Below are positions 34,564 to 60,810 of a stretch of DNA of 60,944 nt, piece by piece. The notes beneath the pieces are model-generated. The model did not search any database. It worked only from the letters and a program-made list of their open reading frames with translations, and was not told the origin of the DNA. A program made the translations under genes and the position numbers. This stretch comes from a virus. The stretch is taken from IMG/VR virus record IMGVR_UViG_3300044699_000154, positions 1-60,944 of that record. The stretch is one strand, 5' to 3'. Position 1 is the first letter of the stretch. Each line of letters opens with the position of its first letter.

Positions 34564-34599
34564 ATGATACCCGCATGCCCAAATGGGCTGCCAACCTAA
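34564..34599 (+). CDS. possible leader peptide overlapping the ParB-like start
   Basis: ATG 11 bases after GAAGAGGAGG gives MIPACPNGLPT, with its TAA sharing bases with the ATG at 34599 (TAATG). If real it would couple translation of the ParB-like gene to the structured leader. Alternatively a missing base here would fuse it to PKWAANLMRT. Confidence 0.35.
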   Translation: MIPACPNGLPT

Positions 34600-35477
34600 T
34601 GCGTACCATCACCGATCCGATGCGCCTCGTGGACGGCGATGCAATCGCACGTCGGCTGTTGGCCCCGGAAAATATTCAGCGATGGCGCCCGGCGAGCATC
34701 GATGTCGGCGCGCATGAAGGACGCGACGTAGAGGTCGGGGCGCTGCGCCGGTCCATCGACCGCGACGGGTTGATCTCCCCGGTCGTCTGTGGCCCCGATA
34801 GAACACTCATCGACGGCTGGCGCAGGATCCTGGCATGGGGCGACAGGGGCGTCATCGACGTCATCGAGGTCCACGACCTGGCCGAAGCGACGGTAGCCCT
34901 TAAATCCATGTGCGACCGAGAGCGGGCGGAACAGCGGGGGTTAGCCGATCTTATCTTCAAATGCGATCTGCTCCAGGGTCTACCGAGGCCGAAGTCGATC
35001 GATGTCTCGAAAATCCCCCGGGCAAGTCATTATGTTACCGACGTCGGGTCTTTCGTGAGTAATGCGGTCGGCATCCCCAGGTCAAAGTATTATGCGTATT
35101 GTCGGCTGCGCAGCATGGCGCATGGGACCGGCATCCCGGAGGCGGCAAGAGAGCTCGCTCGCCAAAAGATGGCGGAGGCGACTGCGGAGCAATGGGGAGA
35201 AAACAGGCTGAAGAGGGCCATCGGCGCGGTTAAGGCCGCAGCCGATGGAGATACGCCGCCCACGGAAACAGGTGGCATGCAACGCCGAAAACCTGCCGAC
35301 ATGAAATGGCTGCCGAAGGCTGTCTACAGTATCGGCGGCCTCACCGAGGCACTCGTCTTCACCTCACCCATTTCCGGCCTGCCGTCCGAGACGCGTGAAG
35401 AGATGATCGCGGTACTCGGTGCGACGGCGGGCAGGATCGACGACCTCCGGCAGAAACTGGAAGAGGGACGGCCATGA
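34575..35477 (+). CDS. ParB/Srx-domain protein in a reversed island
   Basis: 300 residues from the first ATG, 292 from the TAATG start. Residues about 50-100 (EVGALRRSIDRDGLISPVVC, then RTLIDGWRRILAWGDRGVID) match the ParB N-terminal nuclease-like/CTPase-type fold. The middle (ASHYVTDVGSFVSNAVGIPR, SKYYAYCRLRSMAHGT) could be an HTH, and the end is helical. GC is clearly lower than in the flanking late genes. The stop overlaps the next ATG. Partition is unlikely without a ParA, so DNA modification, regulation or host interference are open. Confidence 0.7.
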   Translation: MPKWAANLMRTITDPMRLVDGDAIARRLLAPENIQRWRPASIDVGAHEGRDVEVGALRRSIDRDGLISPVVCGPDRTLIDGWRRILAWGDRGVIDVIEVHDLAEATVALKSMCDRERAEQRGLADLIFKCDLLQGLPRPKSIDVSKIPRASHYVTDVGSFVSNAVGIPRSKYYAYCRLRSMAHGTGIPEAARELARQKMAEATAEQWGENRLKRAIGAVKAAADGDTPPTETGGMQRRKPADMKWLPKAVYSIGGLTEALVFTSPISGLPSETREEMIAVLGATAGRIDDLRQKLEEGRP

Positions 35478-36280
35478 CGGGCGCAGACTACCCGGAACCG
35501 AAAATCGAGATGCTGGCGGTCGGCTCGATAGCGACCGACCACCAAGTCCAGAGGCACCAAAGTCGCTCGCACATAGAGAAGATCAAGAGCGGCTACAGGC
35601 GCGACGGCATCGGAATCTTAACGCTGAGCCGAAGGGAGGACGGCACGCTCTGGTACATCGATGGCCAGCACCGCGGAACTGCGATGTTCGAACTCGGGCT
35701 GAGTTCCGAGCTCGTGACGTGCGAAGTCTACGAAGGCCTCACTCTCGCCCAAGAGGGTGAACTATTCCTCAAGCTGAACAACTCGAAGAACGTCAGCATC
35801 GTAGACAAGTTCCGCGTACGCGTAACCACCGGGGACCCGGTCGCCGTCGACATGGCGAGAATAGCGGGAAACCACGGACTGAAGATAACCGGCGCATCGG
35901 GCGAGGGCCAGATAGCGGCGATCGCGGCGGCGGAAAGCGTCTACACCGGGCAAGTGGCGGGGAAGAATGGAAGCTACCAGGCGGTTTTCGCCATGACTCT
36001 CTCCGTGCTCATCGAAGCTTTCGGCAGGGAACCGGACGCCATGAGCGGCCAGCTCGTCAGGGGTGTCGGGCTCTTCATCCATAAGTACGGCAAGGTGGTT
36101 GTGCAAAACGGACTCGCGAAGAAGATAGCATCGCATCCGGGCGGCGCCGAAGGGCTCATCGGAGCGGGAAAGAACAATAACTTCAGGCATCGACTGGGTG
36201 GCGTCCACAAAGGAATCTGCTTCGCCGTACTGGACGACTACAACAGGGGCAGGCGGAAAGATACGCTACCCGCCGCTTGA
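35474..36280 (+). CDS. DGQHR/ParB-like protein (DUF6551 type)
   Basis: 268 residues. LAVGSIATDHQVQRHQSRSH, IEKIKSGYRRDGIGILTLSR and WYIDGQHRGTAMFELGLSSE, then LTLAQEGELFLKLNNSKNVS form the DGQHR-type ParB-like domain of DUF6551/DndB-like proteins. A helical C-terminus ends GGVHKGICFAVLDDYNRGRR. Coupled to the ParB-like gene and sharing its lower GC. It ends 30 bases from the oppositely read terminase. Precise role unknown. Confidence 0.7.
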   Translation: MTGADYPEPKIEMLAVGSIATDHQVQRHQSRSHIEKIKSGYRRDGIGILTLSRREDGTLWYIDGQHRGTAMFELGLSSELVTCEVYEGLTLAQEGELFLKLNNSKNVSIVDKFRVRVTTGDPVAVDMARIAGNHGLKITGASGEGQIAAIAAAESVYTGQVAGKNGSYQAVFAMTLSVLIEAFGREPDAMSGQLVRGVGLFIHKYGKVVVQNGLAKKIASHPGGAEGLIGAGKNNNFRHRLGGVHKGICFAVLDDYNRGRRKDTLPAA

Positions 36281-36309: not shown

Positions 36310-37854
36310 TTACCGCCGGGAGAGCCGCCGGTCCTCGACCTGCCGCCGCTGCACGATCGCCCCCAGCCCGAGCAGATGCGTCAGCACCGTCACGTTGGCG
36401 TCCAGCCGGTCGGGAGAGTCGTCCTCGCCCGCCCAGGTGCACATCTCGTTCTCGAGTTTCGGCAGGCCCGGGGCCAGATGCCACACGGTGCCGCCGGTCG
36501 TCTTCTGATCGCCCTCGTAGCGGGCCGCGACCGGTTCGGCGCGGATCCGCTTGTTGTCCCGGGCGTGCACGGAGACGATCGGCGGGCACGCCCGCCCGTG
36601 CGTGCGTCCCTCCGACGCGAGCTGCCGCCACGCGATCCGGATGGTCTGGGCGCACATCTCGCCACCCTGGTTCGCCTCGACCACCACGACGTGCGCCCCC
36701 CAGTCGAGGACGGCGAGGCACACGGCGCGACCCCAGCCGGCGGGGGTGTCGTGCACGGTCCTGTCGTCGAGGACCACGGCGTGGTCGGAACGCTCGCCGG
36801 CCAGCCGCCCGGCCACGATGATGCCGGTGTTGTCGGCCTGCTCGCCGGAGGTGACGGCCGGGTCGACGCCCACGCCGATGAGCGCGATCGGCCCGTGCTG
36901 GGCGGGGGTGCACCACTTGTACCAGGCCCGTTTGATGATGACGCCTTCGGCCGTGCTGGGGCGCTGCTGGAACTGGCACTCCCACACCCGGCCGCCGACG
37001 TTGCGCCTCGTGCGGGCGACCTGTTCGGGGGTGTACCGCTCGGGCCAGAGGATCTGCCCCGGCTTGCGGCCCAACGGGTCGGGCGCGGGCTTCCCCTCCC
37101 GGTCGGTTCCGGTGGCCACCTCGGGGATGTCGACGACTTCCCACTTTTCGGCCTGCTCGCCCGCCTCCTCCATCTCGGCGAGCAGGCGGCCCACGAGGTC
37201 GTCGAGGTGGACGCGCTGCTGTACGACGATCACGGCGGCGCCGGGTTCCAGCCGGGTTAGGGCGGTGGACTGCCACCACTCCCAGCAGGTCTCTCGGATG
37301 GTCTTGGAGTCGGCCTCCTTGCCGGCCTTAATCGGGTCGTCTATGAGGAGCAGGTCGGCGCCGCGCCCGGTGAGCGGCCCGCCGGTCCCCAGGGTGAACA
37401 TGCCGCCGCCCGTGGTCAGGTCGAAGCGGTTGGCGGCGTGGCTGCCCCGTTCCAGGGTGAGCCCCAGCCCGGGATGAGTCTTGATCATGTCTCGGACCCA
37501 CCGGCCGTGGCCCTCGGCGAGCTCGGCGCCGTAGGACACGCCGACCACGCGGTGTTTCGGGTGCCGCCGGAGCCACCACAGCGGACCCCAGCGCAGGACG
37601 CGCTCGCTCTTGCCCCGTCGCGGGCTGATGGTGACGATGACGCGGTCGATCTCACCGGCGTCTATGCGCCGGTACACCCGGTCGAGCAGGTCGAGGTGTC
37701 TGCCGGGCCTGACGGCGGGTCCCCACAGCCGGCGGGCGAGGTCGCCGGGGCTGGCGTCGTCGGGGCTCGGCCGCTTAAGCCCGCCCTCGGCGGGTGCCTG
37801 GATCGTGTTCGACAACCATTCCAGCGGGTCCAGAACGGGTGTCGTCAGGCTCAT
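36310..37854 (-). CDS. terL: terminase large subunit
   Basis: 514 residues, uninterrupted. VIVTISPRRGKSERVLRWGP holds the ATP-binding Walker A (residues about 70-80), GADLLLIDDPIKAGKEADSK the Walker B, and VWECQFQQRPSTAEG a conserved linker. The nuclease part begins LIGVGVDPAVTSGEQADNTG with RNase H-like Asp, then VVVEANQGGEMCAQTIRIAW. It cuts and pumps DNA into the procapsid through the portal. The start overlaps the small terminase stop. Confidence 0.93.
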   Translation of the reverse strand: MSLTTPVLDPLEWLSNTIQAPAEGGLKRPSPDDASPGDLARRLWGPAVRPGRHLDLLDRVYRRIDAGEIDRVIVTISPRRGKSERVLRWGPLWWLRRHPKHRVVGVSYGAELAEGHGRWVRDMIKTHPGLGLTLERGSHAANRFDLTTGGGMFTLGTGGPLTGRGADLLLIDDPIKAGKEADSKTIRETCWEWWQSTALTRLEPGAAVIVVQQRVHLDDLVGRLLAEMEEAGEQAEKWEVVDIPEVATGTDREGKPAPDPLGRKPGQILWPERYTPEQVARTRRNVGGRVWECQFQQRPSTAEGVIIKRAWYKWCTPAQHGPIALIGVGVDPAVTSGEQADNTGIIVAGRLAGERSDHAVVLDDRTVHDTPAGWGRAVCLAVLDWGAHVVVVEANQGGEMCAQTIRIAWRQLASEGRTHGRACPPIVSVHARDNKRIRAEPVAARYEGDQKTTGGTVWHLAPGLPKLENEMCTWAGEDDSPDRLDANVTVLTHLLGLGAIVQRRQVEDRRLSRR

Positions 37855-41597: not shown

Positions 41598-41986
41598 CGC
41601 GCGCCCTCCCGTCTCCACGCCTCCGCGCAGCATTCGACGATCACACGCCTGATCGGGGAGTCGTTGTATTTACCCTGCCATTCCCGGGGCGGGATGAACC
41701 CGTTCCACTGCCGTGGATCGACGAGCTTGTGCGCCCGCGCTATCAGTGCGGCGAGGTCGGGGTGGCGCAGCATGGCGCGTGCTCGGCCCCCGTTGCCCTC
41801 ACCGGCCGCGAACGCGTAGGCCTCGCGTTCGGTCTGGATCGGGACGACGTGCCGCTCGGCGTCGCTTTCCTGCCGTTGTCGGCGACGTTCCGCGATCCTT
41901 TGCAGGTCGATGATGTTGGATGACTGGTAGCCCGGCGGGGGGCCGAGTACGTAGGGGTTGGCTTCGGTCTGGTCGATGGTCGTCAC
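41594..41986 (-). CDS. early protein downstream of the initiator
   Basis: 130 residues, GTG start overlapping the initiator stop. YVLGPPPGYQSSNIIDLQRI, AERRRQRQESDAERHVVPIQ, HPDLAALIARAHKLVDPRQW, RRVIVECCAEAWRREGAR. Coupling to the initiator suggests a helper in replication (for example a helicase-loading partner), but no motif shows this. Confidence 0.6.
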   Translation of the reverse strand: MTTIDQTEANPYVLGPPPGYQSSNIIDLQRIAERRRQRQESDAERHVVPIQTEREAYAFAAGEGNGGRARAMLRHPDLAALIARAHKLVDPRQWNGFIPPREWQGKYNDSPIRRVIVECCAEAWRREGAR

Positions 41987-43020
41987 GGCGCGGCTCCGGC
42001 GAACGCATGCTTGTCGGCTTGCATGCGGCGTTCGTCGATCTCGTCGGCACGGCAGCCGCCGCACGTCTGGCCGCTGAAGATTTCGGTGTGGTGTGTGGGG
42101 CATCTGGCCGGCTTCGGGGTGGTGCGTCGCGGCCGGTCGGGGTCGTCGAGTCGGTCCTGTTCTCGGCCCGTTCGCGCCGCCGTGGCCGCGGCGTCGGCTT
42201 CTCGTCGCCAGCGTTCGCAGCAGGGGAGCTCGCACGCCCCGGGTCCGGCCGGAAGCTCGCCGAGGCGGTAGGCGAGCAAGCCGGAGGGCCGTTTGAGGTC
42301 GGGTGGCGGGTCGTCGGCGAGGTGGCGGACGAGGGCGTCGGCGGGCCAGGTGGCGCGTTCGGCTCGGGTGGCGGCGAGGGCGGCTGTGAGGTGGCGGGTG
42401 GCGGGGACGGGTCGTCGCCACGCTTCGGCGACGGCGGCGAGGAGGGCGGTCGCGTCGGCGTCGGGTGCGCTCACCGGCGCCGCCGGCTGTGGGGTGGTTT
42501 CGCCGAGATGGGGATCTTCACCACCACCACCGCCTTGATCCGCGATCAGGGGGGATAGGGGGGTGGTGGTTTTTAATTCCGTTGGGTCCGCAGTAGAAAG
42601 CGGGGCGGGTCCAGACCCGCTACTGACCAGCCCTCGATCTTGCTCGTCGAAGAGATCGAGTTCCGGGTCTTCCTCTGTCAGTAGCGGGTCTGGACCCGCC
42701 CTTGACTCGAAGTCGGCCGGCTCGCCCCGCGTGTCGGCCTGGTCGCCGGGGACGGCCAGCCCGTACCGGGTCGCGCCGAGGAACCGCCGGCCCTTCTCGA
42801 TGATCACGATCAAGCCGGATTCGATCACGGCGCGGATCCGCTCGCGGACCGCCGTCGGGTCCTTCATCCCTAGCCGACGCATGAGCTGTTTCTGCGAGAA
42901 GGTGCCGCAACCGGTGGCGAAGTCGACGAAACTGGCCATGGCGTTGGCCGTCTGCTTGACGATCGCCGGCTCGGGGGACGGGTCGAGGACTTCGCGGAGC
43001 CACGTCGTGTACCTGCTCAC
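41983..43020 (-). CDS. replication-initiator-like protein with winged-helix domain
   Basis: 345 residues. Residues 1-95 (VKQTANAMASFVDFATGCGT, FSQKQLMRRLGMKD, TAVRERIRAVIESGLIVIIE) form a winged helix. Residues about 105-165 are a low-complexity acidic linker (PLLTEEDPELDLFDEQDRGL, TELKTTTPLSPLIA). A helical domain (AWRRPVPATRHLTAALAATR) and a Cys/His end (ARCPTHHTEIFSGQTCGGCR) follow. This resembles phage initiators such as lambda O. The nested inverted repeat in the linker DNA supports that role. Initiator function is inferred. Confidence 0.65.
   Translation of the reverse strand: MSRYTTWLREVLDPSPEPAIVKQTANAMASFVDFATGCGTFSQKQLMRRLGMKDPTAVRERIRAVIESGLIVIIEKGRRFLGATRYGLAVPGDQADTRGEPADFESRAGPDPLLTEEDPELDLFDEQDRGLVSSGSGPAPLSTADPTELKTTTPLSPLIADQGGGGGEDPHLGETTPQPAAPVSAPDADATALLAAVAEAWRRPVPATRHLTAALAATRAERATWPADALVRHLADDPPPDLKRPSGLLAYRLGELPAGPGACELPCCERWRREADAAATAARTGREQDRLDDPDRPRRTTPKPARCPTHHTEIFSGQTCGGCRADEIDERRMQADKHAFAGAAP
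42603..42701. repeat. nested inverted repeat in the initiator gene, candidate replication origin
   Basis: Outer arms 42603-42627 and 42677-42701 are 25-base perfect inverted copies. Each contains the palindrome GCGGGTC-CA-GACCCGC (or with TG in the centre). Inside lie CTCGATCT (42633-42640) and AGATCGAG (42653-42660). An A/T-rich run (TTTTTAATTCC, about 42571-42581) and G runs lie just to the left. The element falls in the linker codons 107-140. Confidence 0.6.
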
Positions 43021-43872: not shown

Positions 43873-44255
43873 ACCTGGGCGGCGAGGGCCGGACACGTGG
43901 GCATGTGCCGGCCGATGTACACCGCGCCCGGCGCCTGCCACGTGTAGCACTGCCCGCAGTGCCACCACGGTCCCTCGACGGGGGCGTTGTCCGGGCCGGC
44001 GTCCTCGGCGTAGATCTCGCGCCAGTCCCACTCGTCGGGGTCTTCGACGCGCATGGCCGTGTCGATCGGCTGGTCGTGGTCGCCGAGCAGTTCGTGTGCG
44101 AAGCCGCCGCGTCGGATGTGGTCGAGGGTGTAGTCGTCTTCGACCCAGGCGACGTATCGGCTGGTCACCTCGATGATGACGGGGCGTTCCGTGTGGGGCT
44201 GTTCTAGATCGCCGATGTTCGGAGTCGAACGTCCGTTCCCGCCATGCGTGCTCAT
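43848..44255 (-). CDS. early protein with a CxxC pair
   Basis: 135 residues. VIIEVTSRYVAWVEDDYTLD, HIRRGGFAHELLGDHDQPID, PWWHCGQCYTWQAPGAVYIG, RHMPTCPALAAQVATTGGAA. CxxC plus H and C suggests a zinc site. Its GGNGRS start segment and TTGGAA end are repeated in neighbouring genes, part of the duplicated junctions described here. Confidence 0.6.
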   Translation of the reverse strand: MSTHGGNGRSTPNIGDLEQPHTERPVIIEVTSRYVAWVEDDYTLDHIRRGGFAHELLGDHDQPIDTAMRVEDPDEWDWREIYAEDAGPDNAPVEGPWWHCGQCYTWQAPGAVYIGRHMPTCPALAAQVATTGGAA

Positions 44256-44986
44256 GCCGCGCCGCCCATCGCGCGGACGGTCGCCGCTGCCATCAGGTGC
44301 TCGCCGAGGAACGCGGTGTACGCCGGCGGTATGGCCTGCGACAGCTCAGCCGAGTTCATCCAGCCGATCCCCATCGCCTCGCTTCCGGCGGCGAGGCGGA
44401 ACCGGTACCCGCGGGCGTACTGCCCTCCTCCGCCGGTGCCGTAGTAGCCGCCGACGGGACGACCCGCACAGCCGTCCGGCGGGGTGAGGACCAGGCCGAC
44501 ACCGCTCGTCTCGAACAGCCGGTGGCGACGCAGGATCCGTCCCTCGGCGCCGAGACCGAACATCGAACCGCAGAGGATCACGTGCTGTTCGACGGGCGCC
44601 CCGGGTACGTTCTCCATCGCCCACGGCAGGCCGGCCGCCTCGAGTCCGGCGCGGGTGGCCGGGATGAGGTCGGCGTACGCCTTCCCTGTGACGACTCGCA
44701 GCGCGGTGTGTGCCTGGCACGGGGGGCTGGCGTGGATCGCGTCGAATCCGGCGACGAACGACCGGTCGGCGAGTACCTCGATCGCGTCCGCCTGGATGAA
44801 CGGGAAGATGGCCGGGTAGTTGGGCTGCGGGGCCAGGTCCACTCCGGTGACGTCGAACCCGGCGGCGTGGTAGCCCATCGAGCAGCCACCGGCACCGCAG
44901 AATAGATCAAGTATCTTCGGCCTGATTCTCGAACGTCCGTTCCCGCCGGTGACGGTTCCGGACGCGCCCTGCTTTTGGGCGCTCAT
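44252..44986 (-). CDS. DNA cytosine-5 methyltransferase
   Basis: 244 residues. KILDLFCGAGGCSMGYHAAG is motif I, DAIHASPPCQAHT motif IV with the catalytic Cys, WAMENVPGAP motif VI, and ELSQAIPPAYTAFLG motif X. The region between motifs is short, so the target-recognition part is small. Without a nearby restriction enzyme it is likely an orphan methylase that protects phage DNA. Lies between 29-bp direct repeats. Confidence 0.88.
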   Translation of the reverse strand: MSAQKQGASGTVTGGNGRSRIRPKILDLFCGAGGCSMGYHAAGFDVTGVDLAPQPNYPAIFPFIQADAIEVLADRSFVAGFDAIHASPPCQAHTALRVVTGKAYADLIPATRAGLEAAGLPWAMENVPGAPVEQHVILCGSMFGLGAEGRILRRHRLFETSGVGLVLTPPDGCAGRPVGGYYGTGGGGQYARGYRFRLAAGSEAMGIGWMNSAELSQAIPPAYTAFLGEHLMAAATVRAMGGAA

Positions 44987-45007
44987 GCCGCACCGCCGGT
45001 GGTGGCG
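44979..45007. repeat. 29-bp direct repeat, right copy at a gene junction
   Basis: Second identical copy. A shorter 19-base pair (44225-44243 and 44929-44947, coding GGNGRS) lies within the same block. Confidence 0.9.
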
Positions 45008-45651
45008 GCGGTCGCGTGGGTGGCGTCATCGGGCAACTGCTCGGCGTTGTCCGGCAACCTGCCCAGGAACTCGGCCGGGATCTCACCCTGGAACCACAGG
45101 TTCGTCGTATGGATCACCCGGCCGTCTGCCAGGAGCCGGAACGCCCATCGGGCGCCGCCGAAGCCGCGCATGCCGGCGTACTGCTCGGCGCCGACGACGT
45201 AGTGCCAACCGCCTCGGCGGATCACCCGCCGACCGTCTTCGGTGCGGTCGCCGTTCTCGGCCCAGCGGACCTTCTCTTCCCAGAACCGCCAAGTGCCCCT
45301 GATGTCGTCGCGGATCTTCTGGGCGCACTCTTCTCGGGTGGCCGCCCACCAACCGTCGAAACCTCCGCCGCCGGCCAGGTTGGTTGCGTGCAGCATCTTC
45401 CACTGCGCTTCGGGCCGGTCGTCGCCGGTGGGCCAGACGGCGTTGTACCCGACGATGCTCTTGCCGCCGAGCTTTTGCGCTTCACCGTAGGTGATCTCGC
45501 CGTCATGGATGACGATGTCGAGGTCGTGGAAGCAGATGCTCGAACTCGTGTTCGCTTCCGGCTTCACGTCACCGTGCGCATCATCGGCTGTACTGGTAAC
45601 AGTGCCGGACTCCTGTGGCCCGATCTTTTCCGGGCATGGTTCAATAGCCAT
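44983..45651 (-). CDS. early protein of unknown function
   Basis: 222 residues. MAIEPCPEKIGPQESGTVTS leads to VIHDGEITYGEAQKLGGKSI, GGGGFDGWWAATREECAQKI, RDDIRGTWRFWEEKVRWAEN and WHYVVGAEQYAGMRGFGGAR. The C-terminal stretch (TNLWFQGEIPAEFLGRLPDN) resembles a small alpha-beta domain. Not recognised. First gene after a 300-base control region. Confidence 0.6.
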   Translation of the reverse strand: MAIEPCPEKIGPQESGTVTSTADDAHGDVKPEANTSSSICFHDLDIVIHDGEITYGEAQKLGGKSIVGYNAVWPTGDDRPEAQWKMLHATNLAGGGGFDGWWAATREECAQKIRDDIRGTWRFWEEKVRWAENGDRTEDGRRVIRRGGWHYVVGAEQYAGMRGFGGARWAFRLLADGRVIHTTNLWFQGEIPAEFLGRLPDNAEQLPDDATHATAATTGGAA

Positions 45652-45969
45652 TCGGCATTCCCTTCTGGTCGTTGCAGAGGGTGTGCAAGTGCCGTCTCCG
45701 TTGGCGCGGAGGCGGGGCGACGGATGCCGCAGGGCAGAACCGGGCGGGGAGCTTGAGACCGACCCATCCGGATGCCCTGCGGCATCACCCACTCTACCCC
45801 GTTCGGGCCATTGTGCGCGCCCACACAACGCCCCGCCCGAACTAGCCCGGGAAACGCTCGCCACTGCGCACCACCCCTTCACGGAAGCCTTGTGGAAACG
45901 GGCACGCCAAACCCGCGCCACGACCCCGGGCAAACGGCGGGCGCGACACGGGGAAACGAGGGGGAAAGG
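45652..45969. promoter_or_regulatory. 318-base gap with promoter candidate and inverted repeat
   Basis: On the minus strand GGGGTAGAGTGGG (about 45799) contains the TAGAGT -10 seen at two other promoters here. A 14-base perfect inverted repeat (GATGCCGCAGGGCA, 45723-45736 and 45773-45786) lies downstream in the leader. No gene recognised. Confidence 0.5.
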
Positions 45970-46719
45970 TCAGTCGGCGTCCAACAGCACCCCCTGACTC
46001 AACCGGCGCGCGGCGGATTCCAGTTGCGCCTCGTCCGCCTCGATCCCCACGGCACGGCGATCGAGCAGCTTTGCCGCCACGAGCGTGCTCCCACTGCCCG
46101 CGAAAGGGTCGACCACCAGCCCGCCGGGAGGGCAGGAATAGGCGATCAGAGGGGACAGTAGAGGTATCGGCTTGGCCGTCGGGTTCGATTCGCGGCCGTG
46201 CAGGTTCGCGGCGTAGATGATTGACGTCATCAACCGCGTGCCGTCATCAACCCACGGCATCGTCGACTGGTAGTCGGCGACAACGCCTTTATCTGGCTCC
46301 GGAGGTCGCCTCCGGCTGTTCGTCTTGACGTTGGATACCACCCGTTGTGGGTCTTTGTAGACATCCGGCCAGCTCCCGCGGAACCACAGAGCCACCTGCT
46401 CATGGGCCCGGCGGAAACGATCCGCCGCCCGGCCCACCGCCGTGTTCTTCGCCCACACGACGTCCTGGCTCAACCGCCAGCCGGCGAACTCGTCGCGGTA
46501 GCGCAGGAACATGCGCAGCGAGCCACAGCACCACATGGCGTCCGCGACCTCGGCGACGACCGCCGGCCAGCCGTCCGGCCACCGGTCCCACTTGAGGGAG
46601 GTCTCGCCGTAGGGAGGATCCGCGACGACGAGGTCGGCGCGCAGGCCCAGCGCGGGCAGGACCTCGCGGCAGTCTCCGAGAAAGAGCTGCACCTGACCGT
46701 CGGCGAAGTAGGGGGTCAC
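45970..46719 (-). CDS. DNA adenine/N4-cytosine methyltransferase, beta class
   Basis: 249 residues. LVVADPPYGETSLKWDRWPD is the catalytic DPPY motif, and it comes before the cofactor motif (GGLVVDPFAGSGSTLVAAKL, then RRAVGIEADEAQLESAARRL). This is the beta-class order. In this class the product is N6-methyladenine or N4-methylcytosine. No restriction partner is seen, so it probably protects phage DNA or controls genes. Confidence 0.88.
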   Translation of the reverse strand: MTPYFADGQVQLFLGDCREVLPALGLRADLVVADPPYGETSLKWDRWPDGWPAVVAEVADAMWCCGSLRMFLRYRDEFAGWRLSQDVVWAKNTAVGRAADRFRRAHEQVALWFRGSWPDVYKDPQRVVSNVKTNSRRRPPEPDKGVVADYQSTMPWVDDGTRLMTSIIYAANLHGRESNPTAKPIPLLSPLIAYSCPPGGLVVDPFAGSGSTLVAAKLLDRRAVGIEADEAQLESAARRLSQGVLLDAD

Positions 46720-46988
46720 GAGGCCTCGCCACCCTCGGCGGCGGGTAGCGCGTACGGGGGGCCGAGCAGCGACTCGATCCGCCGCGGACCATGCCGGCCG
46801 CACTCGTAAACCCCGCCGGGCAGGTAGCGGTAACCGGCTTCCGCGCCACCCCAGCAAAGGACTTCCACCCGCCACCTGTCGACGGCGACCCGTTCGAGAG
46901 CACGGCCGGAATACCGGTGGCCGTCCATCGTGACGGAAAGCAGCGTCCCGACGGTGACCCAGGAGAGCTCGCGGCCGGTGATGGTCAC
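46716..46988 (-). CDS. small beta-rich early protein
   Basis: 90 residues. VTITGRELSWVTVGTLLSVT, RALERVAVDRWRVEVLCWGG, YRYLPGGVYECGRHGPRRIE. Mainly strands and no clear motif. Its stop overlaps the start of the methyltransferase, so the two are coupled. Confidence 0.6.
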   Translation of the reverse strand: MTITGRELSWVTVGTLLSVTMDGHRYSGRALERVAVDRWRVEVLCWGGAEAGYRYLPGGVYECGRHGPRRIESLLGPPYALPAAEGGEAS

Positions 46989-56545: not shown

Positions 56546-58102
56546 TCAACGCCAGCGGATCTCCGCCCGGGAAGGGTCGAACGGGGCGCCGCGCCGGGAC
56601 TGCGGCCCCACCACCACCGCGTCCACCACCGCCCGCGCGAACATCCGCCGCCGCAGATGGTCCATCTCGTCCCACAGCCGGCCGTCCGCCACCGCCGCGG
56701 GCGACGGCCGGTCCCGGCCCGTCAGCCGCGCCTCGAGCACGTCGCGCCGCTCGGCCAGCCCGGAGCGCAGCTCCGCGTACTCGTCCATCGACATCCGCCG
56801 CGGACCCTCGGTAGCCCGCCACCGCTGCGCCAGCACCGTCAGATCCGCCTCGATCCTCGCCAGCTCGGCCGCCTCCGCGTCGCGCCCGGCACCCGCGGCC
56901 CCGCCCGCCCCGGCCAGCGCCGCCGGATCCGCCGCCAGCGCCCGCAGCCGGGCCGAGAGGTGGGCGTCCAGGTCCGCCACCCGCACCCACGTCCCCCCGC
57001 ACCCCCCGTACGGCCTGCCGCGGCGGCAGTAGTAGGCCGCCGGGTAGGACACCCGGACCCGCCGGCCGCCGTCCCGCGCGCGCTCCCCCTCCCACGGCGA
57101 GTGCACCGCCAGCCTCGCCCCGCAGCCCTCCCGGCCGCACACCGCCAGCCCGGAGCACAGGTACACCCGCTCCGGGTGCCTGGGCCGGCGCCCGCCGCGC
57201 GCCGTCATCGCCGCCTGTAGTTGCCGCCACGTCTCCTCATCCAGGATCGGATCCCAGTCCGCCTTTCCGACGATCTGCCCCCTGTGCGCCCGCAGCCCGG
57301 CTATCCGCGGGGAGCGCAGGATGTCGCGCAGCGTGGTGGCCTCCCACCTGCCGCCGCGGACGGTCGGCACGCCCCGTGCCGCCAGGTCCTCGGCGACCGC
57401 GTTGAGCGCCTCGCCGGCCAGGACGCGCCGCGCGGCCTCCCGGACGATCTGCGCCTCGCCCTCGACGACCCGCCGCTTGTCGACGATCTCCCGGCCTGCC
57501 GCGTCGAGCACGCCGGTCGGCACCCCGTAGCCGTAGCCGCGGCGACCCACCGCCGGGCGGCCCTTCTCGGCGGCGTCCCGCAGCGCGGCCCGGACCCGGC
57601 GGGATGTGTCCTGACTGCTCGAGTCGGCGTGGATGATCTCGTACCAGAGCGCGCGCCGGTCGTTCGGGTCGTTGAGGTCGCGCCGCCCGCCCCCGTAGGA
57701 GTGGATGGTCAGCCCGGCGTCGGCGGCCCTGATCAGTCTGAGGAGGTCGTCGGGCCGACGCATCAGCCGGTCCACGTGCCAGATGACCACCCCCCGGATC
57801 AGCCGGTCCCCGACGCGGCCGAGCAGCCTCTCCCACCCGGGGCGGACCACGCCCTCCTGCCAGGCGGAGACGTCGTCGTCGAGGTGGACCTCGCCGATGT
57901 CGAGACCCATCCGCCCGGCCATGGCCTTGCAGTCGCCCACCTGGCGGTCCGTGCTCTCCTTCTGGCCCTGGGCGTTGTAGCTGAGCCGGGCGTAGACGTC
58001 GTACACGTCCGGCGGCGGGGGCGCCCCGTCCGCGGCGGCGGCGCCCTGCCCGCGCCACCACGCATAGCGGCCTCTGATCGTCTCGTCGTCCACCCTGGAC
58101 AC
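56546..58102 (-). CDS. int: large serine integrase
   Basis: 518 residues. DVYARLSYNAQGQKESTDRQ holds the catalytic Ser (about residue 41). IGEVHLDDDVSAWQEGVVRP, RLIRGVVIWHVDRLMRRPDD and SQDTSRRVRAALRDAAEKGR complete the resolvase domain. The recombinase domain follows (GYGYGVPTGVLDAAGREIVD, VAEDLAARGVPTVRGGRWEA, LRDILRSPRIAGLRAHRGQ). A zinc ribbon comes next (CGREGCGARLAVH, YYCRRGRPYGGCGGTWV), then a coiled coil. It integrates the phage by attP x attB recombination. Uninterrupted reading. Confidence 0.93.
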   Translation of the reverse strand: MSRVDDETIRGRYAWWRGQGAAAADGAPPPPDVYDVYARLSYNAQGQKESTDRQVGDCKAMAGRMGLDIGEVHLDDDVSAWQEGVVRPGWERLLGRVGDRLIRGVVIWHVDRLMRRPDDLLRLIRAADAGLTIHSYGGGRRDLNDPNDRRALWYEIIHADSSSQDTSRRVRAALRDAAEKGRPAVGRRGYGYGVPTGVLDAAGREIVDKRRVVEGEAQIVREAARRVLAGEALNAVAEDLAARGVPTVRGGRWEATTLRDILRSPRIAGLRAHRGQIVGKADWDPILDEETWRQLQAAMTARGGRRPRHPERVYLCSGLAVCGREGCGARLAVHSPWEGERARDGGRRVRVSYPAAYYCRRGRPYGGCGGTWVRVADLDAHLSARLRALAADPAALAGAGGAAGAGRDAEAAELARIEADLTVLAQRWRATEGPRRMSMDEYAELRSGLAERRDVLEARLTGRDRPSPAAVADGRLWDEMDHLRRRMFARAVVDAVVVGPQSRRGAPFDPSRAEIRWR

Positions 58103-58241
58103 CCTAGTCAGGTGCGTGTATAAGTACCAGCGTGCTGATGTTTACGTCGGCACCTGCCGGTTCGCGGGACGGGGACGATCCGAAACCGTGCCGCTCCACC
58201 GCGTACTCCGTCGGCGCCCGCGCGACGCCCGGGAGGGGAAC
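58103..58241. promoter_or_regulatory. divergent region between integrase and rightward genes
   Basis: Rightward TATAAG (58119-58124) may be a -10 for the gene at 58242, and GGGAGGGG is its ribosome site. The integrase starts directly at the left edge. An operator cannot be told from the sequence. Confidence 0.45.
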
Positions 58242-58394
58242 ATGACCACCACCGCACCCACCGCCACCGACGTACTCGCCGCGCGCCTGCACGCGCCCGC
58301 CGACATCGCCGAGCAGGTCGGCGCCGGGCAAACCGACCCCGGCGCCGCCTTTGAGGCGCACCGGCTCCACGGCGCCCGCGAGGAGGTGGCCTGA
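58242..58394 (+). CDS. small protein upstream of WhiB
   Basis: 50 residues: MTTTAPTATDVLAARLHAPA, DIAEQVGAGQTDPGAAFEAH, RLHGAREEVA. Acidic helical. The stop overlaps the WhiB start as TGATGG, so the two are coupled. Unknown. Confidence 0.6.
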   Translation: MTTTAPTATDVLAARLHAPADIAEQVGAGQTDPGAAFEAHRLHGAREEVA

Positions 58395-58762
58395 TGGCCG
58401 CCGGGGTGCCCCTCATGCCGGGGACGGACCGGCCGGAACCGGCACAGCTGTTCGGCTGGGAGCCGCGCGGCGCGTGCCGGGACCTGCCCGCGGACACCTT
58501 TTTCCCGCCGGACGGGCGAAACAGCAAGGCCCGCGAGGCCTGGGAGGACGCCGCGCGGCGGGTGTGCGTCGGCGCCCCGCCGTGCCCGGTCCGACGGGAG
58601 TGCCTGGCGACCGCGCTGTACAGGCGCGAGGCCTATGGGCTGTGGGGTGGGCTCACGGTCCACGAGCGGGGACGGCTCGCACCGCGCGGGCGACTCTCGG
58701 AGGAGGAGGCACTCATGGTCGCGGACAGGGTCCTGGCGCGGGAGGCCCGGCATGGCCGATGA
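58394..58762 (+). CDS. WhiB-type iron-sulfur regulator
   Basis: 122 residues. FGWEPRGACRDLPADTFFPP and VCVGAPPCPVRRECLATALY hold the four cysteines of a Wbl [4Fe-4S] protein, followed by AYGLWGGLTVHERGRLAPRG, the G-[VL]-W-G-G turn and basic tail. The middle Cys pair is C-x5-C where the family has C-x2-C. Wbl proteins bind sigma factor A and control host genes in actinobacteria; phage copies may steer host transcription or exclusion. Confidence 0.85.
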   Translation: MAAGVPLMPGTDRPEPAQLFGWEPRGACRDLPADTFFPPDGRNSKAREAWEDAARRVCVGAPPCPVRRECLATALYRREAYGLWGGLTVHERGRLAPRGRLSEEEALMVADRVLAREARHGR

Positions 58763-58989
58763 CCGGACCCGCGAACTGCACGCCGGATGGGAGTGGGACT
58801 ACCCCACGCCGCGGATCCCCGTCGCCGACGACGTTCCGATGCCGCCGGACGGCCCCGGAGCCGGAACGGCGCCGTCCGCGCCTGCGGCAGTGGCGTTGGC
58901 TGGTTCCCGCCGTGCTGTCCGCATTGGTGCTGTTCGGCGTGTCCGCGGGCTATGTGGCGCAGACCGCCGCCAACGGGGGGTGCTGGTGA
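58752..58989 (+). CDS. small single-pass membrane protein, frame broken once
   Basis: Starts inside the WhiB gene. MADDRTRELHAGWEWDYPTP, RIPVADDVPMPPDGP, then with one base change near 58860 EPERRRPRLRQWRWLVPAVL and SALVLFGVSAGYVAQTAANG. About 78 residues. The WRWLVPAVLSALVLFGVSAG segment is a membrane anchor with positive residues on the inner side. Role unknown. Confidence 0.6.
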
Positions 58990-59476
58990 CTACCGCCGCC
59001 GAGACGGACACCTCCCGCGCCGCCGCCGACCTGCGCACCCACATCGCAGGCCTGCGCCACGCGACGATGACCGCCGAACTCGCCCTGCGCGAACTCGCCG
59101 GGGGGGACGGGCGACGACGTGGACCCCGTCGGCAGGCTGCTCGCCGGAAACCCCGGCGCCGCCCGGGACCTGCGGGACCGGGTGCTCGGCCCCGTCCTGA
59201 CCATGGAGGACCCGGTCAGCCGGGAGACGCTGACGCGGACGCTGGCGGCGTGGGTGGACGCCGGGTACAGCGCCGGCGCCGCGGCGTCGGCGGTCTTCTG
59301 CGACCGGAACACGGTGTACAACCACCTGGGCCGGATAGAGCGGCTCACGGGTTACGACAGGAAACCGCGACGTCGCGATGATCACCCTCGCCGTCCGGGC
59401 CTGGCGGCTCCTGGGCGGGACGGGGACGACGGCCGACCGCCGGCCGGAAGACCACGCCCGGGCCACCGGCCCGTAA
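58986..59476 (+). CDS. PucR/CdaR-type helix-turn-helix protein, frame broken twice
   Basis: The GTG start overlaps the stop before it. VTTAAETDTSRAAADLRTHI, AGLRHATMTAELALRELAG, then GDDVDPVGRLLAGNPGAARD, and RETLTRTLAAWVDAGYSAGA, ASAVFCDRNTVYNHLGRIER, LTGYD. This last part is the C-terminal HTH of PucR/CdaR regulators (R-N-T-V-x-x-H-L-x-R-I-E). After another base change it ends VAMITLAVRAWRLLGGTGTT, ADRRPEDHARATGP. About 163 residues. It lacks the usual long sensory part, so it may be a stand-alone DNA-binding protein. Confidence 0.7.
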
Positions 59477-59594
59477 CCCCATTTGCCTACGAAGAGAAGC
59501 CGTCCGGCGCTACGGTGCGCCGGAACCGTCCACCCTCCGAACGACCCGAACGGGGGGCAGAAATGCCCGCGAGAATGAGACAGGATCTGAAGCC
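59477..59594 (+). other. short gap with a leader
   Basis: Contains GGGGGGCAGAAATG, which gives a short ATG reading (MPARMRQDLKP) that may be the true start of the next protein in another frame. TACGGT could be a -10. Nothing else seen. Confidence 0.35.
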
Positions 59595-60591
59595 GTGGAC
59601 CCGCCGCACCCGTCCCGCCGCATCCTCCTCTCCGGCGTCGCCGCGCTGCCGCTGGCAGGTGGCGCCATGAGCTCCGAAGCGGTCCGCCCGATGCAGACGA
59701 CCACAGTCGAGATCTCCTCGATCCGGCGGACCCTGGCGGCGGTCGCCGCGGGCTGGGGCGAATGGGGGCCGCGCAAAGTCGCGGCCACGCTGGACACCGC
59801 GGAAGGCATTCTGACCCGCGTCCGGGCGGCGGAGGGCTCGAATCGAAGACCGCCCGCGACTGCACGGCCCTGCACGCCAGGCTCCTGGTCATGCGCGCCG
59901 AAGCCGACTGCGGGCTCGGCGACTACGCCGAGGCGGAGCGGCGGTGCGACGTCGCGACCCGGCTCGCCGACTCCGTCGGCGACCGGGCGACCGCCGGGCA
60001 GGCCCACGCGGTGACGTCGGTGGCCCGGCGGTGCGCGGGCCGGCCTCCCGGGGCGCTGATCGCCGCCCGGCGTGCGCGCTCGGCCGCAGGCGACTCGCCC
60101 GCCGGGGTGATGGCCCTGCTCGACGAGGCGCTCGCCTGCGCCGCCACGCCGGGCGCCGGCGCCCCGCACGCCGTCCTCGACGCGGTGGAGGCGGCCGAGG
60201 AGCTGCACGCCACCCTGGGCCATGACGTCTGGGGCGTGCCGGGCGGTTACCCGTTCGGCACCTACCACCGGGCGGACCTGCTGACCTACGGCGGGGCCGC
60301 CCTGGCCCGGGTCGGGATGTACGCCGCGGCGGCGGAGCGTCTGGACGAGGCCGCGGGGTCGTACCCGGCGGACAGCCTGGAGCTCTCGCGGGTGGCGCTG
60401 GAGCAGGCCCGCGTGGCGCTGGGCGTGGGCGAGCGGGACGCCGCCGCGGAGTTCGCGTCGGCCGCGGTGACCCAGGCGCAGCCCCGCCCGGCGGCGTGGG
60501 TGGCCGGATCGTCGGCGAGCTCGACCGGTCCTCCGGCGGCGCGATGGCCGACCTCGTCGCGCGGACGGCCGCGTGGAAGTTCGGTGCCTAG
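59595..60591 (+). CDS. TPR-type protein with Arg-Arg N-terminus, second copy, frame broken twice
   Basis: VDPPHPSRRILLSGVAALPL, AGGAMSSEAVR is a twin-Arg, hydrophobic start. It continues RRTLAAVAAGWGEWGPRKVA, ATLDTAEGILTRVRAAEG. After a base change near 59840 it reads KTARDCTALHARLLVMRAEA, DCGLGDYAEAERRCDVATRL, GGYPFGTYHRADLLTYGGAA and LSRVALEQARVALGVGERDA. A last change near 60505 gives VARTAAWKFGA. Same layout as the protein at 54764 (RR start, TPR-like helices, an F-x-TYH segment), so the two are probably distant relatives. Confidence 0.6.
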
Positions 60592-60594
60592 GAG

Positions 60595-60810
60595 GTGCCT
60601 AGGAAACGAGCCGGCGCCGCCTTCGGCCCGTACGAGGCCGTCGAGCAAGGCGCCCTGACCTGCCCGAACTGCCACGGCGGCGGGAAGATCGCAAAACCGG
60701 GTGCGGGCGCCAGCCTGACGAGCGACCAGCCCGAAAACCTCATCGACGACGACGCCCTCGACGACTGCCCCGAGTGCGGCGGGTCAGGGAAGGTGGCAGC
60801 GAAGAAATGA
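60595..60810 (+). CDS. DnaJ-like zinc-finger small protein
   Basis: 71 residues from GTG with GGAGGT before it. TCPNCHGGGKIAKPGAGASL and DDCPECGGSGKVAAKK are two CxxCxGxG units, as in the zinc-finger region of DnaJ. May chaperone phage proteins or bind nucleic acid. The stop overlaps the next ATG. Confidence 0.7.
   Translation: MPRKRAGAAFGPYEAVEQGALTCPNCHGGGKIAKPGAGASLTSDQPENLIDDDALDDCPECGGSGKVAAKK

Follow-up and report, generated by a model that had tools for sequence, protein, structure and literature searches.

Does a nested inverted repeat inside a phage gene mark the place at which the product of that gene starts copying the phage genome? This question is raised by a gene from an IMG/VR virus record of 60,944 bases. 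The whole record was analyzed and is herein referred to as the window. Its GC content is about 71%, and it contains actinobacterial phage genes:

12919-16329, minus strand, tape measure
36310-37854, minus strand, terminase
56546-58102, minus strand, serine integrase
58394-58762, plus strand, WhiB

The serine integrase and the WhiB regulator form, together with an NsdA-family TPR regulator, a cluster at one end of the window (56546-60658). Two ORFs on the plus strand (34575-36280), one ParB-like and one with a DGQHR domain, are located between the terminase gene and an HNH gene. They lie in the kilobase with the lowest GC content in the window (0.607), and this region resembles an acquired island for cargo, defence, or DNA modification. 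Two DNA methyltransferase genes, of the C5 and N6/N4 types (44252-46875, minus strand), are located upstream of the gene under study and have the same direction.

The protein encoded by this gene, P0001, consists of a winged helix (aa ~1-92), a linker rich in D, P, G, and T (aa ~97-180), and a C-terminal part, at the end of which a CxxH...CxxC zinc-ribbon-like segment can be read from the sequence. The gene, its parts, and the elements of the repeat region are as follows:

41983-43020, minus strand, P0001, 345-aa candidate replication initiator (hhalign, structure model)
42733-43020, minus strand, part coding for the N-terminal winged-helix domain (pLDDT 82.6 with the initiator alignment; fold matches)
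42481-42732, minus strand, linker segment, candidate origin region (GC3)
42603-42627, no strand, left arm of the 25-bp inverted repeat
42677-42701, no strand, right arm of the 25-bp inverted repeat
42605-42620, no strand, palindrome GCGGGTC-CA-GACCCGC, candidate initiator-binding site
42684-42699, no strand, palindrome GCGGGTC-TG-GACCCGC, second candidate site, 79 bp from the first
42633-42660, no strand, inner 8-bp inverted repeat CTCGATCT/AGATCGAG (42633-42640 and 42653-42660) with a 12-nt loop
42564-42587, no strand, most A/T-rich 24-mer of the gene, candidate unwinding element
42570-42578, A/T-rich run TTTTTAATT
42549-42563, G runs (G6-ATA-G6)
42520-42578, plus strand, CACC-rich/GGTGG-rich inverted repeat (42520-42531 and 42559-42570) with G runs and a T run, terminator-like

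A first-pass annotation had described a perfect 25-base outer repeat, two internal GCGGGTC-NN-GACCCGC palindromes, an inner 8-base repeat, and an adjoining A/T-rich run with G runs. All of these elements were recovered at the positions listed above. The arms of the outer repeat are 100% complementary and separated by a 49-nt spacer, and each arm contains one exact 16-bp palindrome, with no further exact copy in the window. The tetranucleotide GTAG is found at the inner foot of both hairpins. No significant direct repeat was found beyond the two palindromes, and a candidate direct-repeat unit composed of a palindrome and a half-site was rejected as not significant. On the coding strand, the A/T-richest 24-mer is located downstream of both palindromes; the local A/T peak is high, being exceeded by only 0.04-0.08% of the 20-30-bp windows, and is not the highest of the whole window. 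The CACCACC/GGTGGTGG inverted repeat lies on the strand opposite to the gene and directly adjoins the A/T-rich stretch. Motifs similar to this repeat were also found in loci L166 and L167.

The 25-bp inverted repeat is real and not a product of chance. The second-longest perfect inverted repeat in the 61-kb window has 14 nt, and in 40 third-order Markov sequences the longest one did not exceed 17. After synonymous recoding of the linker (n = 6,000), no sequence reached 25, the maximum being 20. Short palindromes are also overrepresented in the linker, with two observed and about 0.2 expected under synonymous recoding. The folding z-scores were -8.0 and -8.4 for RNA of the two strands, and ranged from -8.0 to -8.8 for RNA and DNA together.

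The region around the repeat is also unusual in its codon usage. GC3 of the gene is 0.92 before the linker, 0.61 in the linker, and 0.83 after it; over codons 101-180 it is 0.53-0.65, compared with about 0.9 before this stretch, and it rises again afterwards. Since the dip spans codons 101-180, the unusual stretch covers about 240 bp and extends beyond the 99-bp repeat. The A/T-rich run is contained in the same stretch.

No matches to PHROG, Pfam, or NCBIfam were found for P0001. Searches with tblastn or patterns gave no whole-gene relative, whether in phages and plasmids, in contigs of viral or genome origin, or in 43 related phage records. The repeat region has no direct DNA relatives and no close match in phages or plasmids, and the exact arm pattern is absent from IMG/VR. 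The motif AAAACCACCACCCC... was rejected: it led to three unrelated contigs, two of them with terminator-like repeats. Relatives selected by terminase (80 + 80 viral loci and 80 genome loci) were distant and lacked P0001, and the actinophage set of these loci had no comparable inverted repeat near the terminase. Many nested inverted repeats of 20-38 bp with 80-145-bp spacers were observed in alphaproteobacterial loci (L045, L063, L098, and others). These repeats are located near terminase-like (gene-transfer-agent) genes and resemble known REP-type palindromic repeats.

Comparable architecture was found by a search of IMG/VR for GACCCGCTAC followed, after 40-70 nt, by GTAGCGGGTC, with no use of homology. 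This search yielded one virus contig, L251, with the match located inside the linker of a 289-aa winged-helix protein. This protein is a member of PHROG 6643 / 391 (replication initiation, O-like), and directly after its gene comes one for a helicase, with a DnaB N-terminal domain and an AAA_25 domain. The same arrangement as proposed for the window is therefore present in an initiator gene adjoining a DnaB-type helicase gene, which supports the proposal of an origin inside the initiator gene. Five palindromic units are present in the L251 linker; they have the form GTAGnGGGTCAnnnnTTGACCCnCTAC, and some are degenerate at the ends. Annotated relatives of the L251 protein are found in Streptomyces phages, namely a "RepA-like replication initiator" in SoJo, where the gene adjoins a helicase loader gene, and a "replication initiation protein" in SV1 and Picard. 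All three of these initiators have linker palindromes and a GC3 dip, and the sequence of the unit varies by group.

A profile scan for such initiators gave 65 loci, one of which was the L251 contig again. The palindrome families vary widely across these loci, including GGGCCGGAATCCGGCCC, GGTCCGGAATCCGGACC, GGTACGGAATCCGTACC, and others. Palindromes and GC3 were counted in the 30 genes for which all three parts could be delimited, with the expectation taken from synonymous permutation. The linkers contain 92 palindromes vs. 20.1 expected, the winged-helix parts 12 vs. 14.5, and the C-terminal parts 10 vs. 9.9; these 30 genes are not independent events because they are related to each other. Mean GC3 is 0.90 in the winged helix, 0.66 in the linker, and 0.93 in the C-terminal part, and the linker has the lowest value in 30 of the 30 genes. 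The same test applied to the window gene gave GC3 values of 0.92, 0.61, and 0.83, and two palindromes vs. 0.21 expected. In 44 of 63 genes (~70%), including the window gene, all palindromes precede the A/T-richest 24-mer, an order also seen in phage lambda. Comparable palindromes occur at the same place in the predicted initiator genes of dozens of related Streptomyces-type phages. In the loci L260-L324 and L252-L259, the palindrome unit differs between initiator groups, and the winged helix can still be aligned. Raleigh-type phages (L258:1530-2480 and L259:1509-2459) have kept the C-terminal domain of the initiator and have a different N-terminal domain. Their linker palindromes also differ (GCTGTACC...GGTACAGC), and the N-domain and the palindromic sites appear to have been swapped together.

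The assignment of P0001 to a winged-helix, initiator-like type, made in the first-pass annotation, agrees with the profile comparison. In hhalign, the profile of the initiator winged helix matched P0001 with a score of 36.9 (E 3e-5). P0001 ranked first among 452 window ORFs (next score 19.9) and first among 2,081 sequences from phage loci (next score 21.1), while winged-helix controls scored 19.6 (LexA), 18.2 (FadR), and 8.0 (ArsR). By this comparison, the N-terminal domain is a much closer match to the winged helices of actinophage O-like initiators than generic winged helices are. The relation was not significant in HMMER (E 0.71), and no similarity was found between the C-terminal part of P0001 and the C-terminal domain of the initiators. 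AlphaFold, supplied with initiator winged helices as the alignment, predicted a winged helix with pLDDT 82.6; this model is support and not proof because the alignment presupposes the relation. The single-sequence fold (pLDDT 52.4) was uninformative. The first PDB rows obtained with Foldseek for the model include the RepA_N initiators 4pql, 4pt7, and 5kbj, a resemblance in fold only. Since VIA-align gives many unrelated winged helices equal rank, these are matches to winged helices in general, and an initiator cannot be recognised from the fold by itself.

The winged helix, the two palindromes, the downstream A/T-rich stretch, and the linker of the window gene form the same minimal set as in the lambda and pSK41 origins described below, and from this set we infer an origin of the same type. 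The linker of 41983-43020 (minus strand) is probably a cis-acting origin of the lambda/pSK41 type, with initiator-binding palindromes embedded in the linker of their own initiator, and the nested repeat most likely marks the place where P0001 would start copying the phage genome. The N-terminal winged helix, matched by both profile and model, would bind the two 16-bp palindromes as a dimer. Once bound, the initiator would bend and load this region, and it would melt the A/T-rich stretch that follows immediately downstream (42564-42587). A host or phage helicase would then be recruited; recruitment of the host helicase is speculative. The amino acid sequence of the linker may be largely a by-product of the DNA sites, and the perfect nesting into a 25-bp inverted repeat may result from two copies of one site in opposite orientation.

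Several properties of a lambda-type origin are present in the window gene: inverted-repeat sites inside the ORF, an A/T-rich stretch downstream of them, and an initiator-like DNA-binding domain encoded by the same gene. The earlier annotation placed a candidate origin in the linker of its initiator, by analogy with gene O of lambda, and this placement fits the profile match and the palindromes, GC3 dip, and usual downstream A/T-rich stretch of actinophage initiator linkers. Against an origin, there are only two full palindromes, 79 bp apart, and the C-terminus is unrelated to those of initiators. The lack of a whole-gene relative in the sets searched, the non-significant HMMER value, and the generic nature of the structure matches also count against it. 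Among the window proteins scanned, which cover part of the ORFs of a window that may itself be a fragment, we recognised no DnaB, primase, or helicase loader, and hence no helicase or loader gene adjoining the candidate initiator, as one does in a lambda-type origin. No DnaA boxes were found near the inverted repeat. A change of GC skew at the site, a test named in the first-pass annotation, was not observed; the absence of such a switch weakens the case for a phage origin here and does not exclude it.

Among known systems, lambda O/ori-lambda has, like the candidate origin of the window, a position in the middle of the initiator gene, inverted-repeat sites, and a flanking A/T-rich tract (PMC7466680). 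Each iteron bound by O is itself an inverted repeat and lies in the central part of the gene, and the minimal unwinding unit consists of two iterons and the neighbouring A/T-rich tract (PMC7466680). In lambda there are four iterons and an adjoining gene P, whereas the window has two palindromes in the form of 25-bp arms and no loader among the proteins scanned. RepA_N plasmids of the pSK41/pTZ2162 type share with the reading proposed for the window an N-terminal winged helix and origin boxes located in rep and encoding the linker. The pSK41 initiator uses its winged-helix domain to bind four boxes, which are located centrally in rep, and the linker encoded by the origin DNA is dispensable (PMC5703833). 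These plasmids differ in having four Rep boxes and another C-terminal domain, and P0001 is not a member of this group by sequence (no Pfam match). In SPP1, oriL is located inside gene 38, so that the origin also lies within the gene of the origin-binding protein (PMC6316719), but its repeats are direct instead of forming an inverted pair, and the gp39 loader and gp40 helicase are present. The actinophage O-like initiators (PHROG 6643/391; SV1, Picard, SoJo, and L251) have the winged helix, linker palindromes, GC3 dip, and, usually, downstream A/T-rich stretch in common with the window. P0001 differs from them in that neither whole-length homology nor a match to the PHROG family was detected, its C-terminus is zinc-ribbon-like whereas theirs is a YFLxxWxxLPPAP domain, and its palindrome sequence is its own.

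A further reading has a small chance of being right. Under this reading, an actinobacterial phage origin would be a fast-changing palindromic code in the initiator linker, with protein and target changing as one cassette. In this phage, the sites would have become the arms of a perfect nested repeat, and the initiator would read an extruded hairpin or cruciform and not linear iterons.

The main rival of the origin reading, unlikely in our estimate, is a GTAG-tagged REP doublet, in which two palindromes stand tail to tail and enclose GTAG, or a palindromic miniature element of another kind, that is, selfish DNA inserted in frame (99 bp, 33 codons) into a tolerant linker. Such a doublet would account for GTAG at the inner foot of each hairpin and for palindromes paired head-on in a layout that fits TT dimers with 20-100-bp spacers, and intragenic REPs have been described, many of them in replication and repair genes (PMC3733652). 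However, GTAG-tagged REP dimers form families of copies, and none was found for the window element, for which the window, IMG/VR, phages, and plasmids gave the negative results described above. The GC3 dip is wider than the 99-bp element, and GTAG-flanked palindromes are also present in bona fide initiator linkers (L251, L261, and L262).

Two further explanations are less likely, namely action at the RNA level and a foreign operator or centromere. A structured mRNA element, in which the nested hairpin slows translation or protects or attenuates the transcript, is very unlikely: either RNA strand folds far better than shuffles, and the terminator-like repeat with its T run adjoins on the plus strand, but the terminator scan made no call on that repeat (42520-42578), and it is DNA palindromes of divergent sequence that recur in initiator linkers, with no excess in the flanking domains. 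A chance placement in this gene of an operator or centromere-like site that serves another phage regulator, such as the ParB-like proteins (34575-36280), is also very unlikely: paired 16-bp palindromes do resemble paired operators and ParB-like genes are present, but exact copies of the palindrome occur in the window only here, their position in an initiator-like linker can be explained without a second protein, and plasmid-style partition is not required because the phage has a serine integrase.

That an origin can lie within the gene of its initiator is already known. As far as our searches show, two points are new: palindromic sites recur in the linkers of actinophage O-like initiators, and in a divergent variant, a gene whose C-terminus is different, these sites are arranged as a perfect nested repeat. 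The mapping of origins in actinobacterial phages is poor; for the RepA systems of mycobacteriophages, a position in or near repA is only a presumption, and the regions that were examined yielded no repeats (PMC7157519). The combination of palindromes, a GC3 dip, and an A/T stretch in the initiator linker provides a sequence rule that predicts origins in dozens of phages. Co-evolution of the initiator winged helix and its target becomes testable with simple plasmids, and the loci L260-L324 and L252-L259 provide a ready data set for it.
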